Program-made: the position numbers and the translations under genes
Part shown: piece after piece, positions 4,418-11,766 of the stretch
Position numbering within the stretch: the stretch's first letter is position 1
Layout of the letters: each line of letters begins with the position of its first letter
The notes under the pieces: model-generated
Seen by the model: the letters and a program-made list of their open reading frames with translations, nothing else
Database searches by the model: none
What the model was told of the DNA's origin: nothing
IMG/VR virus record: IMGVR_UViG_3300034104_000826
Location: 1 to 24,069 of that record
Source of the DNA: a virus
Length of the DNA: 24,069 bases
Strand: one strand, 5' to 3'

Positions 4418-5578
4418 TTAATGAATAAAATACTGCCCATAATGAGGGTTAACTCCCAACACTTCCATTTCGTGGTAACGGATTGCGTCTATTGAGTGGT
4501 TATTAAAGTCGATAGGCTTATTAAGACGAACGCCAGTTTTATCAGTGTCCCAAATGTAACCGCGCAATTCTTTGATTAGATTAGTGCTGTTTGAGGTTAC
4601 CAAATACTCTTGGCTTTGCATTATTTGAATACCGAAGTTTATTGAGTCTTTGCCTTTTGTTACGCCTTTAATCGTCTTTCCGTATCTTCTTATTTCTTCG
4701 ATTGACTTAGGTTCTGAGCTGTCCGCATAAATTGGTACGTTACCAGGTAGCACTTTAGCTATGTCGCTGTTTATCATTCCTGTTTTGTAAACAAGTTCGT
4801 TTAAGATTCTTTGACCATTCCATGTATAAACTTCAACGGCTGCTGTTGGGTCGTTTGTATATCCAAAGTCAAGTCCTATTCCTATCAATCTCGCATCACT
4901 TGGAACTTTGTCTATTTGTTTCCAGTTGCTGAATATAACGCCTTCTAACATTCCTATTTCACCTAAACCATATACACGCCACCAATTACTCCAATAAGTG
5001 CTTGTAAGAGCTTTTTCTCTATTCTTTTCTATTTGGTCAATAATTGACTTGTCAAGAGCTTCGTTGTCTTTGTAGGTTAGAATTATAAAGTCTGCATCAG
5101 GTTCGTCTTTTAGTTCGGTATGTACCCAGAATTCGCTGGTAGGGTTAAAATCTAAGTAAACAAATTTCTTTGTTCTAATATTAAGCTGCTGGAAACTTTC
5201 AAAGTTTACGTTGTTACATTCGTTTATAAATAGAATATCACGCCTTGCACCCCTTAATTTGTCGGGTTGGTCTGCGCTAAAAAATTCAATGTAACTGCCT
5301 TTATTAAATCGATATGTGAGACTTGACTGATTGAAATTACCTTCGTTAAAATTACCTATCCATCGCATTATTTTTATAAAATCTTTTAATGCTCCTCTTT
5401 TAATATGTGGTATTGATTCAGCAACTACCGATATTTCGCTGTTCGGGTTATCAATAGCATACTGAATTAAAAAAGTAAGTATTGTAAACGTTTTCGAACT
5501 TGAAGTTCCGCCCTGGATAATTCTAATTCTTTTTTTTAATTGTGCTATTTTTTTCTGCGCTGTTGTTTTAGTCAACAT
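4418..5578 (-). CDS. terL: Terminase large subunit (packaging ATPase/nuclease)
   Basis: A 386-residue packaging motor subunit that drives DNA into the prohead with ATP and cuts the concatemer. Walker A is GGTSSSKT at residues 23-30 and Walker B is DILFINE at 114-120, with E120 as the likely catalytic carboxylate. The C-terminal RNase H-fold nuclease shows its acidic residues in GLDFGY (D237), IYADSSEP (D286) and NHSIDAIRY (D364). Length is normal for compact TerL proteins of the phage terminase large subunit/PBSX type. The start overlaps the 3' end of the small-subunit gene by 11 bases, the classical TerS-TerL arrangement. It is separated from the portal gene by most of the window, unlike the usual TerL-portal neighbourhood. 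Confidence 0.93.
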   Translation of the reverse strand: MLTKTTAQKKIAQLKKRIRIIQGGTSSSKTFTILTFLIQYAIDNPNSEISVVAESIPHIKRGALKDFIKIMRWIGNFNEGNFNQSSLTYRFNKGSYIEFFSADQPDKLRGARRDILFINECNNVNFESFQQLNIRTKKFVYLDFNPTSEFWVHTELKDEPDADFIILTYKDNEALDKSIIDQIEKNREKALTSTYWSNWWRVYGLGEIGMLEGVIFSNWKQIDKVPSDARLIGIGLDFGYTNDPTAAVEVYTWNGQRILNELVYKTGMINSDIAKVLPGNVPIYADSSEPKSIEEIRRYGKTIKGVTKGKDSINFGIQIMQSQEYLVTSNSTNLIKELRGYIWDTDKTGVRLNKPIDFNNHSIDAIRYHEMEVLGVNPHYGQYFIH

Positions 5579-5918
5579 CTATATCAAGTTTATTAAATAT
5601 AGGTTTTTCAGCTTCTTCGGTTACCGTGTGGTTCATTGCCAATTTACGTAGCTCTTCAGGTGAAGCAATCAGTTTCATTAACGCCATTTGTAAAGCTGGT
5701 GCGTTTGACTTATACCATTTTGAACGCATTGAAACTTTTAATTCAGTTCTGTTTTGGTTTAATAATTCTTTTAGCTCCTCCGATTTTTCCATTTCCCAAG
5801 CATAAAATGTACTGGAGGAAATAGGAAGGTAGGCTATAATATCATCAAAAAAAAACAATCGGTGTTTAACAATCATTTCTTTTGCTTGTTCGTATATCTT
5901 TTTTTTATCGTATCCCAT
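5568..5918 (-). CDS. terS: Terminase small subunit-like protein
   Basis: A 116-residue protein directly upstream of and overlapping terL. The N-terminus (KKIYEQAKEMIVKHRLFFFDDIIAYL) followed by PISSSTFYAWEMEKSEELKELL reads as a helix-turn-helix followed by an oligomerisation helix, the usual layout of small terminases that bind pac/cos DNA and regulate TerL. The C-terminus is acidic (EEAEKPIFNKLDIDVD), as expected for the TerL-contacting tail. Identification rests on position, size and HTH character, since small terminases are poorly conserved. It starts 21 bases after the folE stop, so packaging genes share a transcript with the base-modification cassette. Confidence 0.8.
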   Translation of the reverse strand: MGYDKKKIYEQAKEMIVKHRLFFFDDIIAYLPISSSTFYAWEMEKSEELKELLNQNRTELKVSMRSKWYKSNAPALQMALMKLIASPEELRKLAMNHTVTEEAEKPIFNKLDIDVD

Positions 5919-5939: not shown

Positions 5940-6485
5940 TTATTTTATTAAATTTAAAAATTCATTACGAGCGTTTAAATCAGTTTTGAATACTCCTAAC
6001 ATTTTGGATGTTGATGTCCATGTATCATGTTTTTTAACGCCTCGCATACACATACAAAGGTGCTGCGCCTTTAAATGAACTGCTACTCCTTTTGGATTAA
6101 GTTCGTTTTGTAATCGTTCTGCAATTTGTGATGTTATTCTTTCTTGGTTTTGAAAACGATTTGCGTATAAATCAACCGTTCGTGCTAATTTACTTAAACC
6201 TACTATTTTTTCATTAGGAATATAAGCTACGTCAGCAGTACCAAAAAATGGTGCAGTATGGTGTTCACATATCGAATAAAAAGGAATATTTGTTTGAATT
6301 ATCATTTCATCAGTTCCTTCAGCATCAAAAGTTGTAAAATTAAATTCCTTTGGTTCTAAAAATTCACGCATAAATTTGATGTAACGCTTTGGTGTATCTT
6401 TTAAACCTTCTCGATTAGTATCTTCTCCTAAATGTTCTAAAATAGCTTTAAAATGCCATTCAGGGCTGTTTATAATATATTCCAT
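5940..6485 (-). CDS. folE: GTP cyclohydrolase I
   Basis: A 181-residue GTP cyclohydrolase I, converting GTP to 7,8-dihydroneopterin triphosphate, the entry step to 7-deazaguanine (and folate) synthesis. Family signatures are present: EGLKDTP (residues 26-32), SICEHH (71-76) and QHLCMCMRGV (141-150). The expected zinc ligands are C73, H76 and C144. GLSKLAR at 96-102 is the conserved substrate-pocket segment. It overlaps the end of queE by 16 bases and is the last gene of the modification cassette before the terminase genes. With queD, queE, queC and a DpdA-like gene next to it, it most likely supplies the DNA-modification pathway rather than folate. Catalytic residues are intact. Confidence 0.95.
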   Translation of the reverse strand: MEYIINSPEWHFKAILEHLGEDTNREGLKDTPKRYIKFMREFLEPKEFNFTTFDAEGTDEMIIQTNIPFYSICEHHTAPFFGTADVAYIPNEKIVGLSKLARTVDLYANRFQNQERITSQIAERLQNELNPKGVAVHLKAQHLCMCMRGVKKHDTWTSTSKMLGVFKTDLNARNEFLNLIK

Positions 6486-7072
6486 ATTTTATGATTTTGA
6501 AGTGATAATTTCCATTTTGGATTTTGTATACATAAGTCAATGCAATGTTTTAAATTATCCGTGTTTATGTTAAAACCATCTGAATGCGGACTTAACCAAT
6601 AATGATTTGCTTGTATACTTGGTTCGGGAATAGATTGACCTTTATGTCTTACATAACGTAATTCACTTACTCCGTTTTGAAAGTTTTTTTTTATTACGTG
6701 TTCTGCTACCTTTGGAGAAACACAGATAAAATCTAAGCCTTCGGGTGCAGGATGAAGACCGCTTGTTTCTACTGCTTGATAATATCCGTTTTGTTTAAAA
6801 TAACAAATAATTTCAAAAGTTAATTGGTCTAAAGGTTCACCACCAGTCCAAGTAATTTCTTTACATCCATTTGCGTTTTCACTAATCCAATTTTCAATTT
6901 CTTGGATTTTCATTTCTTTGCCGCTTTCAAATTCAGTATCGCATTTTATTCCAGCCGAAAAACAAGCATTTTTTGCTTTGCAACCTTGTAATCTTATAAA
7001 TATTGTTGGCGTTCCTATTCTGGCTCCCTCACCTTGAAGGGAATAAAAAATTTCACTTACTTTTAATTTCAT
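6470..7072 (-). CDS. queE: 7-carboxy-7-deazaguanine synthase (radical SAM)
   Basis: A 200-residue QueE-type radical SAM enzyme, converting 6-carboxytetrahydropterin to 7-carboxy-7-deazaguanine (CDG). The opening SEIFYSLQGEGARIGTPTIFIRLQGC is diagnostic. WTGGEP (residues 75-80) is the SAM-binding GGE motif, and LSPHSDG near 156-162 and SLQNHKIWNIL at the end match the family's C-terminus. The Fe-S cysteines are C31, C37 and C44, a CX5CX6C spacing instead of the classical CX3CX2C. QueE proteins with enlarged cluster loops are known, so this looks functional but divergent. It overlaps queD by 20 bases and folE by 16, in one operon. Confidence 0.92.
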   Translation of the reverse strand: MKLKVSEIFYSLQGEGARIGTPTIFIRLQGCKAKNACFSAGIKCDTEFESGKEMKIQEIENWISENANGCKEITWTGGEPLDQLTFEIICYFKQNGYYQAVETSGLHPAPEGLDFICVSPKVAEHVIKKNFQNGVSELRYVRHKGQSIPEPSIQANHYWLSPHSDGFNINTDNLKHCIDLCIQNPKWKLSLQNHKIWNIL

Positions 7073-7460
7073 AAATAACGTTTGAAGATTCTGTTTCTGC
7101 TAATTGTATTTCGGTTATTTTTAAACCTGTTTCGTTTTGTATTCGTGTAAATAACCAAATTGCCATGTTTTCTGCTGAGGTTTCAAAAGGTAGTTTTTTA
7201 ATTGGTTCATTTGCTAACTCCAAAACAAACACCAGTGGGTCGTTTTCATATAATAAAAACCAGTGACAATATTCTTTTATAATTGGTTCAACCAATTTAT
7301 CAATATCTGAAAATAAAAATGTAATTCCTCCTTCGTTAATTTGTTCAAATTTAAACTTACATTTTACTTTGTAAGTATGCCCGTGAATGCGACCACATTT
7401 TTCACCACCAGCTTTATTTCTATGCGCTGCGTAAAAGTGATATTTTTTTTCTATTATCAT
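7053..7460 (-). CDS. queD: 6-carboxytetrahydropterin synthase
   Basis: A 135-residue QueD/PTPS-family enzyme turning dihydroneopterin triphosphate into 6-carboxy-5,6,7,8-tetrahydropterin. Counting from ATG 7460, the zinc histidines are H13 (AAHR), H26 and H28 (HGHTYKVK), and C22 in EKCGRIHGH is the catalytic cysteine. FSDIDKLVEPII and ETSAENMAIWLF are the expected second-half motifs, and LAETESSNVIY supplies the conserved acidic substrate-binding residue. I chose ATG 7460 because it overlaps the queC stop as ATGA, like other junctions here; an ATG two codons upstream (7466) is also in frame. It acts as part of the folE-queD-queE-queC set. Confidence 0.93.
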   Translation of the reverse strand: MIIEKKYHFYAAHRNKAGGEKCGRIHGHTYKVKCKFKFEQINEGGITFLFSDIDKLVEPIIKEYCHWFLLYENDPLVFVLELANEPIKKLPFETSAENMAIWLFTRIQNETGLKITEIQLAETESSNVIYEIKSK

Positions 7461-8119
7461 AACCATCCTTTTTGTTTTGCTTCATAATAACCTTTAACTC
7501 TTAATTCAGTTGCTGGATTATTATTTAATCCATAACCCCACTCATTTTTTATCATATTTCCATTATAATCTGTTAATGTATCATTTATTATTACATCTAA
7601 ACAATTCAAATCTTTTGCCATTTTCCATGTTTCTGCTTTATTCAAATACATTAAAGGAGTGTGTATTTTAACGTCTCCAATTCCCAATCCGAGGCTCAAA
7701 GATAATTCAATTGCATCAATAGTTGTCTGTCTGCAATCTGGGTATCCTGAGTAATCCGTTTGACACACTCCCGTAACTATATTATTTGCTCTAATTTCAG
7801 CACAATAAGAACCTGCAATAGTCAAAAATAAAATATTTCTTCCAGCTGTAAAACTTGCTGGTAATTCTTGATTAATTTTACTTTTTTTATTGTGATTTGT
7901 GTTTTCTGTTAAACTACTCGGCGCAAGTAAATTTTTTACGTCAAATATTTTATAATTAACATCAATATTATTCGCTATTTTTTGAGCCTGTATTAATTCT
8001 TGTTTATGCATTTGTCCGTAATCAAATCCAATAGCATAAATCTCTTTAAAATGTTTTTTTGCCCAATATAAACAGGTTGTTGAGTCCTGACCTCCGCTTA
8101 ATAAAATTACTGTTTTCAT
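7457..8119 (-). CDS. queC: QueC-like 7-cyano-7-deazaguanine synthase lacking the zinc cysteines
   Basis: A 220-residue PP-loop ATPase of the QueC family, which converts CDG to preQ0 with ATP and ammonia. The nucleotide-binding loop SGGQDS is at residues 8-13, GRNILFLT at 93-100, QTDYSGYPDCR at 110-120 and TPLMYLNKAETW at 144-155. The family normally ends with TLTCYNG followed by GCGxCxxC, four cysteines binding structural zinc. Here the region reads TLTDYNG (D184), GYG (Y196), NNN (199-201) and PAT (T204), so all four cysteines are gone while the surrounding sequence (ELR at 205-207, then VKGYY) still aligns. The product could be unchanged or altered. The start overlaps the DpdA-like stop as ATGA. 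Confidence 0.9.
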   Translation of the reverse strand: MKTVILLSGGQDSTTCLYWAKKHFKEIYAIGFDYGQMHKQELIQAQKIANNIDVNYKIFDVKNLLAPSSLTENTNHNKKSKINQELPASFTAGRNILFLTIAGSYCAEIRANNIVTGVCQTDYSGYPDCRQTTIDAIELSLSLGLGIGDVKIHTPLMYLNKAETWKMAKDLNCLDVIINDTLTDYNGNMIKNEWGYGLNNNPATELRVKGYYEAKQKGWL

Positions 8120-8847
8120 AAATTGTTTTCTGCGTATTTTGAAAATTTAACCCATTCGTTAAAATTATTTAGAGCCGTCATATTTGTTTTAACTCTTTGT
8201 CCTATTTCTTTATTTCGTTTTTTCATTGTTTTTCCATCAAACCAATAAACAGAACCAAATCTATTGCCCGATAACCATGATGTACTATCAACAGAATAAA
8301 ATTTATATTTTTCTAATCCTTTTAAATTTGTAAATCCTAATCCGTGAACTTTACAGTTATTTTGTTGTGCTATTTTTAATAATGGAAAAAAAATATTGTA
8401 TTGACTGCTTTTTATTTCTTTAGTAACAATTCCACCAATAGCAATAAAATTATATTCTTTACACATTTGTTTCCAATATTCTAACCCTCTTGACTTATGC
8501 CATACAGGAATACACTGTTTATTTGTCAATTTTTCAAGTTTATTTCTTAATCTCTCAACCTCTTTTATTCCTACAATTGAATCAATATCTAATTCAAAAA
8601 AATATTTTACATTGTATTTATTAATAAAATTAGCATATTCAACTATATAATTATCCCAATTTAAGTTCGAACCTGATTTATTCATATAAGTAAACGCACC
8701 ACTATCCAATAAAAACATATTATATTTTAATATATTTTTTTCTTCACCTTTTATATAAACAAAACTTTCAAGTCTATTAAAATCAAAAAAATCTCTATTT
8801 TCCCAACAATGCTGATTCCATCCACTTCCTGCTAAAAAAATTTTCAT
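8116..8847 (-). CDS. dpdA: DpdA-like DNA 7-deazaguanine transglycosylase
   Basis: A 243-residue TIM-barrel protein resembling phage DpdA, the tRNA-guanine-transglycosylase paralogue that swaps guanine in DNA for a 7-deazaguanine. Motifs: LLDSGAF at 46-52 (D48 is a candidate catalytic or base-contacting Asp), FFELDIDS at 83-90, IPVWHKSR at 113-120, AIGGI at 136-140, VHGLGF at 167-172 and VDSTSWL at 186-192. The strand-by-strand pattern is that of the compact phage DpdA group. The CxCxxC...H zinc site of bacterial TGT is absent. It is coupled to queC (ATGA) and to the ParB-like gene (ATGA). Base composition is much more AT-rich than the flanks. Family call is by motif and context; subfamily not assigned. 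Confidence 0.82.
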   Translation of the reverse strand: MKIFLAGSGWNQHCWENRDFFDFNRLESFVYIKGEEKNILKYNMFLLDSGAFTYMNKSGSNLNWDNYIVEYANFINKYNVKYFFELDIDSIVGIKEVERLRNKLEKLTNKQCIPVWHKSRGLEYWKQMCKEYNFIAIGGIVTKEIKSSQYNIFFPLLKIAQQNNCKVHGLGFTNLKGLEKYKFYSVDSTSWLSGNRFGSVYWFDGKTMKKRNKEIGQRVKTNMTALNNFNEWVKFSKYAENNL

Positions 8848-11288: not shown

Positions 11289-11320
11289 TAAAAAAAAAGC
11301 GGAATTTTTTACGTTCCGCC
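11289..11320 (-). terminator. Rho-independent terminator
   Basis: On the minus strand GCGGAA (11319-11314) pairs with TTCCGC (11304-11299) around a 9-base loop, followed by a run of nine T (11298-11290). The orientation terminates transcripts coming from the recombination genes and the structured RNA island, separating them from the sigma-factor/modification transcript. Confidence 0.85.
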
Positions 11321-11449
11321 TTAATGTAACTTTTGCTATACAACACCTAAAAGAGTTACCAACTTTGCCTACTTACGATTAGGACAACCTGAGCGCACAG
11401 TTCTAATGGGATGTGAGTTGTGTTTACGTTCCCGTGTACTTAGGGCAAA
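11321..11449 (-). ncRNA. Structured noncoding region, candidate small RNA
   Basis: No minus-strand ATG occurs between about 11289 and 11460. On the minus strand TTTGCC (11449-11444) pairs with GGCAAA (11369-11364), extended inward past a bulged C and an internal loop by TA/TA and TAC/GTA, closing an 86-base domain. A second hairpin pairs GTAA-CTTTT (11359-11349, with two unpaired bases) with AAAAG-TTAC (11334-11326). The terminator hairpin follows. G+C is higher here than in flanking genes. I do not recognise a known RNA family. It may be the 3' part of one RNA together with the tRNA-like element upstream. Confidence 0.5.
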
Positions 11450-11460
11450 TTAAATTTTAG

Positions 11461-11556
11461 TAGTCAGGGGAGGACTCGAACCCCCAGCGCCCTGTTCATA
11501 TCTTTACAGTGGAGCACCTGATAATGGCTGCGTTACCCATACTTCGCATCCTGACT
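11461..11556 (-). tRNA. tRNA-like gene with abnormal central region; isotype not assignable
   Basis: On the minus strand, AGTCAGG (11556-11550) pairs perfectly with CCTGACT (11468-11462), followed by an unpaired A like a discriminator base. Directly inside the 3' strand is a good T arm: stem GGGGG/CCTCC around loop TTCGAGT. A D-arm-like hairpin GCG...CGC with GGG in its loop follows the acceptor. The middle is irregular: GCC/GGT closes a 7-base loop ATTATCA (formal anticodon UAU, but with C at position 37 and a 3-bp stem), and 28 further bases with a CTGT/ACAG hairpin precede the T arm. Total 96 bases, no encoded CCA. It begins 6 bases after the XRE gene. It may be a degenerate or class II-like tRNA, or a tRNA mimic. 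Confidence 0.5.
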
Positions 11557-11562
11557 AACCTT

Positions 11563-11766
11563 TTATTTACTAAAAAACTCACCCAGCTTTTCTATTGACC
11601 TACTGGATAAACTACTTCCACTCATAAATTTATGTAAGTTAGGTTGTTTTATCTCTACTAACTTAGAAAAAGCGTTTAAACTTAATTCGTGTTTTTGTAA
11701 GTAGTGTCTAATCATTAACCTCGTTAGTTCATTTGCTTCGCTTAAAACCTTTGCTTGTTGTTTCAT
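11563..11766 (-). CDS. XRE/Cro-type HTH regulator (67 aa)
   Basis: A 67-residue protein that is almost entirely a Cro/CI-type helix-turn-helix: LTRLMIRHYLQKHELSLNAF, KLVEIKQPNLHKFMSGSS and SRSIEKLGEFFSK. The recognition helix is around residues 42-52 (QPNLHKFMSG). It should bind DNA as a dimer. It is the last protein gene of the recombination operon, coupled to the preceding gene by ATGA. The repeated promoter elements in this window are candidate targets, which is inference. A lysogeny role is not supported, since no integrase is visible. Confidence 0.78.
   Translation of the reverse strand: MKQQAKVLSEANELTRLMIRHYLQKHELSLNAFSKLVEIKQPNLHKFMSGSSLSSRSIEKLGEFFSK

Follow-up and report, generated by a model that had tools for sequence, protein, structure and literature searches.

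A mobile, pseudoknotted RNA of phages that adjoins tRNA genes in larger genomes and occupies an exchangeable RNA slot in small ones

On the minus strand of an uncultured virus record, a small helix-turn-helix (HTH) gene is followed by a GC-rich island that ends in an intrinsic terminator, and the question raised by this locus is what the island encodes. The window analysed here is the whole record of 24,069 bases, in which the long genes lie on the minus strand. A preliminary description of the island had taken it for a single phage small RNA of ~270 nt, perhaps freed by host enzymes from a tRNA-like 5' part. Such an island does exist, but it consists of two independent noncoding RNA modules, which close a gene run at its 3' end, and not of one RNA (Table 1). 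On the minus strand the 67-aa HTH gene is followed by a tRNA-like structure (TLS, module 1), a 14-nt linker, a pseudoknotted RNA (module 2) and the terminator.

The G+C content of the island is 43%, as compared to 32.5% for the window, and its best 60-nt stretch reaches 56.7%, a value attained by only 0.025% of all 60-nt stretches in the window. No sizeable open reading frame was found in the island, in agreement with the earlier view of a GC-rich segment without a supported gene. The accompanying statement that the minus strand lacks ATG codons is false, since these occur at positions 11549, 11540 and 11499, although the longest reading frame started there has 17 codons. The terminator was also correctly recognized; its stem, GCGGAA/TTCCGC followed by a T-run, is kept in most relatives. 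A Pfam search with the 67-aa HTH protein yielded only a sub-threshold match to DUF7726.

Table 1. Positions in the window of the two RNA modules, their structural elements and the borders of the slot.
Feature	Positions	Strand	Remarks
Small HTH (XRE-like) gene, 67 aa, slot border	11563..11766	-	HTH by sequence inspection
Variable cargo slot, HTH stop codon to terminator stem	11320..11562	-	243 nt here, 6 nt in 'empty' relatives
Module 1, TLS, 96 nt including discriminator base	11461..11556	-	occurs alone in L052
TLS acceptor 5' strand AGTCAGG	11550..11556	-	
TLS D-arm TGCG-AAGTATGGGTAA-CGCA	11529..11548	-	
TLS T-arm GGGGG-TTCGAGT-CCTCC	11469..11485	-	
TLS acceptor 3' strand CCTGACT	11462..11468	-	
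Module 2, pseudoknotted RNA, ~121 nt	11326..11446	-	cmsearch match 11323-11447, 108.6 bits (partly by construction, see text)
P1 hairpin CCC-TAAGTACAC-GGG (RNA: CCC-UAAGUACAC-GGG)	11431..11445	-	compensatory changes in L514, L522
P2 5' strand ACAAC	11417..11421	-	
P3 hairpin CACA...TGTG, within P2	11396..11415	-	
P2 3' strand GTTGT	11384..11388	-	
P4 hairpin CCTA-ATCGTAAG-TAGG (RNA: CCUA-AUCGUNNG-UAGG), directly after P2	11368..11383	-	
Pseudoknot strand AAAG in J4/5	11363..11366	-	partner CTTT at 11350-11353 in P5 loop
P5 hairpin GTAACT...AGTTAC	11326..11359	-	
Intrinsic terminator GCGGAACGTAAAAAATTCCGC + T-run, closes slot	11290..11319	-	conserved

The tRNA-like element of the preliminary description is present as module 1. 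All seven acceptor pairs and all five T-stem pairs are formed, and the module has several features that characterize a tRNA, namely a 7-bp acceptor, a D-arm, a 5-bp T-arm and a TTCRANT loop, here TTCGAGT. At the anticodon position, where a tRNA has a 5-bp stem and a 7-nt loop, there is merely a 3-bp stem. Because a usable anticodon arm is missing, module 1 cannot play the role of an ordinary decoding tRNA. ARAGORN predicted 0 tRNA genes at module 1, and Rfam RF00005 gave no match to it at E<=10.

Homologues of module 2 were collected by blastn, by motif scans of viral contigs and with a covariance model. The first connection, to the crAss-like phage cr6_1, came from blastn, which in the reference phages matched only cr6_1 and one near-identical fragment. 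Scans with a 17-base and then a 14-base motif produced diverged copies, several of which sit on contigs of ~40-175 kb. The covariance model (R1) was built from 25 sequences that included the window, so that the window's own score is partly a product of construction; another Crassvirales reference, cr4_1, was found by the model alone. The family so defined comprises ~29 further copies in other phages, 54-99% identical and inclusive of cr6_1 and cr4_1, of which 27 score 48-124 bits with R1 and two are weaker. The RNA is ~95-155 nt long; of the 19 matching records, 18 contain it once and one has in addition a diverged second copy in tandem. In L286, two diverged tandem copies are located at 614-707 and 716-838, the second with a different P1 loop, GAAUGCGCAC. 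Both this second copy and cr4_1 illustrate that members are overlooked by a search with the 5' motif.

Searches of Rfam 15, including ROOL, GOLLD, tmRNA and the known ribozymes, left module 2 unmatched at the gathering threshold; at E values up to 10 the scores of the window were far below gathering and the member L283 had no match. The family is apparently undescribed, being absent from Rfam 15 and from the searchable papers; an unnamed earlier listing is possible in the supplementary tables of large RNA screens (e.g. PMC8040213), which lie outside that search.

To what extent is module 2 a structured RNA? Single-sequence folding gave nothing beyond chance, with z=+1.5 for the whole island and z=+1.7 for module 2, and the structure of module 2 was missed by it. 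The proof of structure is covariation in homologues, not stability. In an alignment of 30 sequences, P1, P3, P4, P5 and the pseudoknot covary, with 123 two-sided changes versus 36.7 after shuffling, so that the check for compensatory changes in related phages suggested by the preliminary description came out strongly positive. The pair cells were formed in 89.6% of cases, as compared to 70.9% for shuffled and at most 48.9% for slid structures, and the covariation score was 0.532 versus 0.192, in an alignment that is fitted to the model and in which cells count sequences rather than independent events. A MAFFT alignment, free of any such fitting, agrees (92.2% of pair cells; 65 two-sided changes versus 18.3). 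P2, the strands of which are split by the alignments, was tested by script outside R1 and is complementary in 17 of 19 distinct strand pairs, against 3.7 expected and a maximum of 11 in 5000 shuffles. The pseudoknot has at least 4 Watson-Crick pairs in 10 of 24 cases (1.6 expected). In the first motif search P1 could not vary by design; a further scan therefore left its 3' strand free, and this yielded two new members, L514 and L522, with the compensatory P1 pairs CTC/GAG and CCT/AGG. The P1 of cr4_1 is different (GTATG-GCGCG-CATAC), with P2 (ACCTG/CAGGT), P4, P5 and the pseudoknot retained. In the window all five helices and the pairing between J4/5 and the P5 loop are in register. A position in J1/2 changes in concert with a position of the P4 loop, U accompanying A and A accompanying U in 26 of 28 sequences, which hints at a tertiary contact between the two. 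Covariation and the negative Rfam result both bear out the earlier suggestion of a structured phage RNA outside the known families.

Two helices of the preliminary description are affected by this anatomy. The letters of its 86-base domain closed by TTTGCC/GGCAAA (11364-11449) are there, but the pairing is due to chance: the TTT comes from the linker, it is not kept in relatives, which have TTAGCC or AGCCC, and the bases involved belong to the covarying P1 and P4. Its GTAA-CTTTT/AAAAG-TTAC hairpin survives in part, in that the outer GTAACT/AGTTAC corresponds to P5, whereas the CTTT pairs with the upstream AAAG to form the pseudoknot.

The family belongs to phages. Using R1, it was detected in 1 of 398 Bacteroidota genomes, and a bacterial origin was rejected because the small contig carrying this single copy is nearly identical to cr6_1 around the RNA. 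Seven of nine reference phages besides T4 (six Crassvirales and one Schitoviridae) had no match at E<=0.001, so the RNA is not a core feature of crAss phages. Seven of the larger carriers encode a terminase resembling that of cr6_1 (27-37% identity), from which we conclude that some at least of the carriers are crAss-like. A search for the T4-type capsid (PF07068) gave no match, the control being likewise silent, and the TerL comparison was used instead. Some carriers seem to be recoded, with 14 in-frame TAG codons in the terminase of cr6_1 and 6 in-frame TGA codons in that of G418 (L514). A tmRNA is also encoded by some carriers (L295, L299, L312, L348).

We also examined the position of the island in small related phages, for which slot loci were collected via terminase, HTH protein and terminator searches. 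Among 126 distinct contexts, 37 slots were almost empty, 4 ran off the contig and 16 were unclassified. More than 10 kinds of content were observed, alone or combined, mostly unrelated small RNAs. These include short GGCTCGGCAAAG-type hairpins, a GATTGTG...CACGGTC hairpin that is often enclosed by a covarying outer stem (ACCTGC/GCAGGT, ACTTGC/GCAAGT, GCAGTTA/TAACTGC), an ATTCAG...CTGAAT hairpin, a CCAATT hairpin and, in L201, a different TLS. The GATTGTG...CACGGTC RNA is ~50-60 nt in size and common in small phages (L094, L114, L140, L229 and others); across 398 bacterial genomes the GATTGTG pattern gave matches at chance level only and was dropped.

The TLS of the window is found without module 2 in L052, and module 2 without the TLS in L155, L266 and L161. 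The sequence of module 2 is ~98% identical between the window and L155 while the HTH proteins are 79% identical, indicating that module 2 has moved separately from its neighbours. The slot contents are exchangeable RNA cargo, with the TLS and module 2 gained and lost separately. The tandem arrangement of the two elements in the window, L002, L104 and L110 is what a single RNA of ~270 nt released from its tRNA-like 5' part would predict. Given that each element occurs alone elsewhere, that their order is reversed in large phages and that the 86-base closing helix is not conserved, we consider such a single RNA very improbable.

In the larger phages the family RNA usually adjoins tRNA genes, which makes a link to tRNA processing plausible. 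It ends 0-8 nt ahead of a tRNA in 11 loci and ahead of a TLS in 7, and in cr4_1 it is followed by a TLS; the family RNA comes first and the tRNA or TLS after, the reverse of the order in the window. Numerous TLSs, 60-170 nt in length, occur in the same arrays; their 7-bp acceptors match and a D-arm and a T-arm are present, but the anticodon domain is replaced. A simple search for the tRNA type, covering both tRNAs and TLSs, returned 65 hits in array loci with a total of 161 kb, as against a single hit in terminase loci totalling 676 kb and none in 10 shuffles. In the window's TLS, the 3'-terminal portion (T-arm plus acceptor) is 91-95% identical over 22 nt to an element that immediately follows the family RNA in G013 and G018, both large phages. 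Judged by these sequence features, module 1 is of the type found in the tRNA arrays of large phages, with its anticodon domain replaced.

The acceptors of the array TLSs differ in sequence but match within each element (AGTCAGG/CCTGACT, ACAGGAG/CTCCTGT, TGTAGAG/CTCTACA), and most are missed by ARAGORN. Examples are located in L295 (7630-7727), L312 (3014-3135, 3263-3373), L319 (3841-4009), L321 (4124-4291), L330 (934-1004), L304 (4015-4160) and L309 (401-461). Near the family RNA in L299, L319 and L321 we observed another unnamed conserved RNA, with CTTTAACTGTAGAAAGGGC in a covarying stem; its stem variants are CCTATACC/GGTATAGG, GTATCC/GGATAC and CGTAC/GTACG, followed by AATGCCARTCGTAAAAG and AGATGTCCACGCACCCATCT. 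A conserved element, GTCTTCGGCCGTGTAAAGGTGCCGCTAACTAGAAAGTAGAC, adjoins the family RNA in L295 and L312. The 175-kb contig L289 has predicted genes for tRNAs with four-base anticodons at 5166-5240 and 5657-5732, one of which immediately follows the family RNA.

The distance to upstream tRNAs bears on the possibility that the RNA is a self-cleaving ribozyme which frees tRNAs or mRNAs from adjoining RNA. In 8 loci (L277, L283, L286, L288, L304, L307, L322, L330) the family RNA begins 3 nt downstream of a tRNA, comparable to the theta ribozymes of gut phages, which lie within 5 nt of tRNA 3' ends and perform this job (PMC10879173). The two have in common a small size, a pseudoknot and a place immediately behind tRNAs of phages (PMC10879173), and the compact fold and conserved unpaired bases of module 2 would also suit a ribozyme. 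However, theta ribozymes have an HDV-like fold and self-cleave, while P1-P5 and one pseudoknot follow each other in a different order in module 2, which occurs away from tRNAs as well: none adjoins it in the window, L155 or cr6_1, where a ribozyme would have nothing to mature. In the HDV layout, the partner of the 5' strand is a remote 3' strand, whereas the first bases of module 2 form a local hairpin, P1, with compensatory changes, and a theta/HDV layout was rejected on this anatomy. None of the Rfam ribozyme models matched at E<=10, and we regard a ribozyme of this sort as quite improbable.

A second class of positions raises the question of a role in cis. In many phages (L279, L300, L309, L319, L334, L155) the family RNA is located 2-12 nt past a stop codon, and in the small phages it sits just ahead of the conserved terminator. 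Such a tight spot, which counts against an RNA acting in trans, also fits a 3'-UTR element in which the pseudoknot would block 3' exonucleases, insulate the mRNA from the tRNA array or modulate the adjacent terminator; the other slot contents are likewise short hairpins. Yet several large phages have the RNA between tRNA genes with no adjoining mRNA (L277, L281, L283, L288), 37 of 126 slots hold nothing between the HTH gene and the terminator, and the conserved loops AUCGUNNG and UAAGUACAC exceed the needs of a simple block. On balance, we think a cis-acting element unlikely.

The explanation that we favour, and to which we give about an even chance of being correct as a whole, is a cargo slot with two RNA genes, of which module 2 would be a free-standing, trans-acting RNA of a family from tRNA islands. 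What is observed is a conserved, structured, mobile, phage-borne RNA associated with tRNA genes. In the large phages its ends would be generated by processing of the neighbouring tRNAs, by RNase Z or an equivalent upstream and by RNase P downstream, and in the small phage by upstream processing together with the terminator. The conserved loops of module 2 would then bind a host or phage factor and might help the phage against its host, via counter-defence or by an action on tRNAs or the translation machinery. Help against the host is suggested by the fact that the RNA behaves like other accessory cargo in being transferred, lost and combined, and these two routes are favoured by the niche shared with phage tRNAs and by the pattern of presence and absence; they are nevertheless a guess, and a somewhat doubtful one. 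More broadly, we tentatively raise the possibility that module 2 founds a class of phage RNAs that act in trans (as an inhibitor of host defence or of a tRNA or translation factor, or as a new ribozyme), an accessory gene made of RNA only that moves between unrelated phages and for which the stretch from HTH gene to terminator could be a dedicated loading site.

Phage tRNAs have been proposed to evade host tRNA nucleases by altered anticodon loops (PMC10264068); module 1 shares with them the acceptor, D-arm, T-arm and niche but lacks a usable anticodon arm. Evasion of retron defences by phage tRNAs has been reported as well (PMC11555353). The Racr anti-CRISPRs are small phage RNAs directed against host defence (PMC10651486), but they are described as mimics of CRISPR repeats and module 2 is a multi-helix pseudoknot.

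By niche and not by sequence, the kin of the family are GOLLD, ROOL, the T4 RNAs rnaC and rnaD, and the theta ribozymes. GOLLD and ROOL are structured RNAs of phages and prophages, of unknown function and often near tRNA islands (PMC12286853). Like module 2 they are phage-encoded and lie near tRNA genes, but they are far larger (GOLLD often >800 nt) and form cages, and no Rfam family matches module 2. The stable RNAs of T4 known as species 1 and 2 (rnaC and rnaD) are similar in size, 139 and 119 nt, and are situated inside the phage tRNA cluster, although in another phage group with another host; a tRNA-like fold, akin to that of module 1, is adopted by the 3' part of rnaC. Homology of module 2 to these RNAs was rejected, since the best hit of an unfiltered cmsearch, 9.1 bits at L525:1527-1631, is outside both of them. 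The TLS of rnaC, at 909-1002 on the minus strand of L525, has a ACGGAACG/CGTTTCGT acceptor, a CCGGG-TTCGAAT-CCCGG T-arm and a long variable arm.

An apparently undescribed, well-covarying pseudoknotted family hereby joins the small group of RNAs from phage tRNA islands that have no known function (GOLLD, ROOL, T4 rnaC/rnaD). Its distribution points to an exchange of such RNAs between small phages and large crAss-like ones, and the occurrence of several unrelated small RNAs in the slot suggests that accessory genes made of RNA are collected by phages in much the same way as protein ones. With a size of ~120 nt, the RNA is compact and directly testable. Elsewhere in the window, at 5940-8847, inspection revealed QueC/QueD/QueE/FolE-like genes, and one protein from this region matches the queuine tRNA-ribosyltransferase phrog_887 (DpdA-like); judging from these genes, the phage may carry 7-deazaguanine modifications in its DNA.
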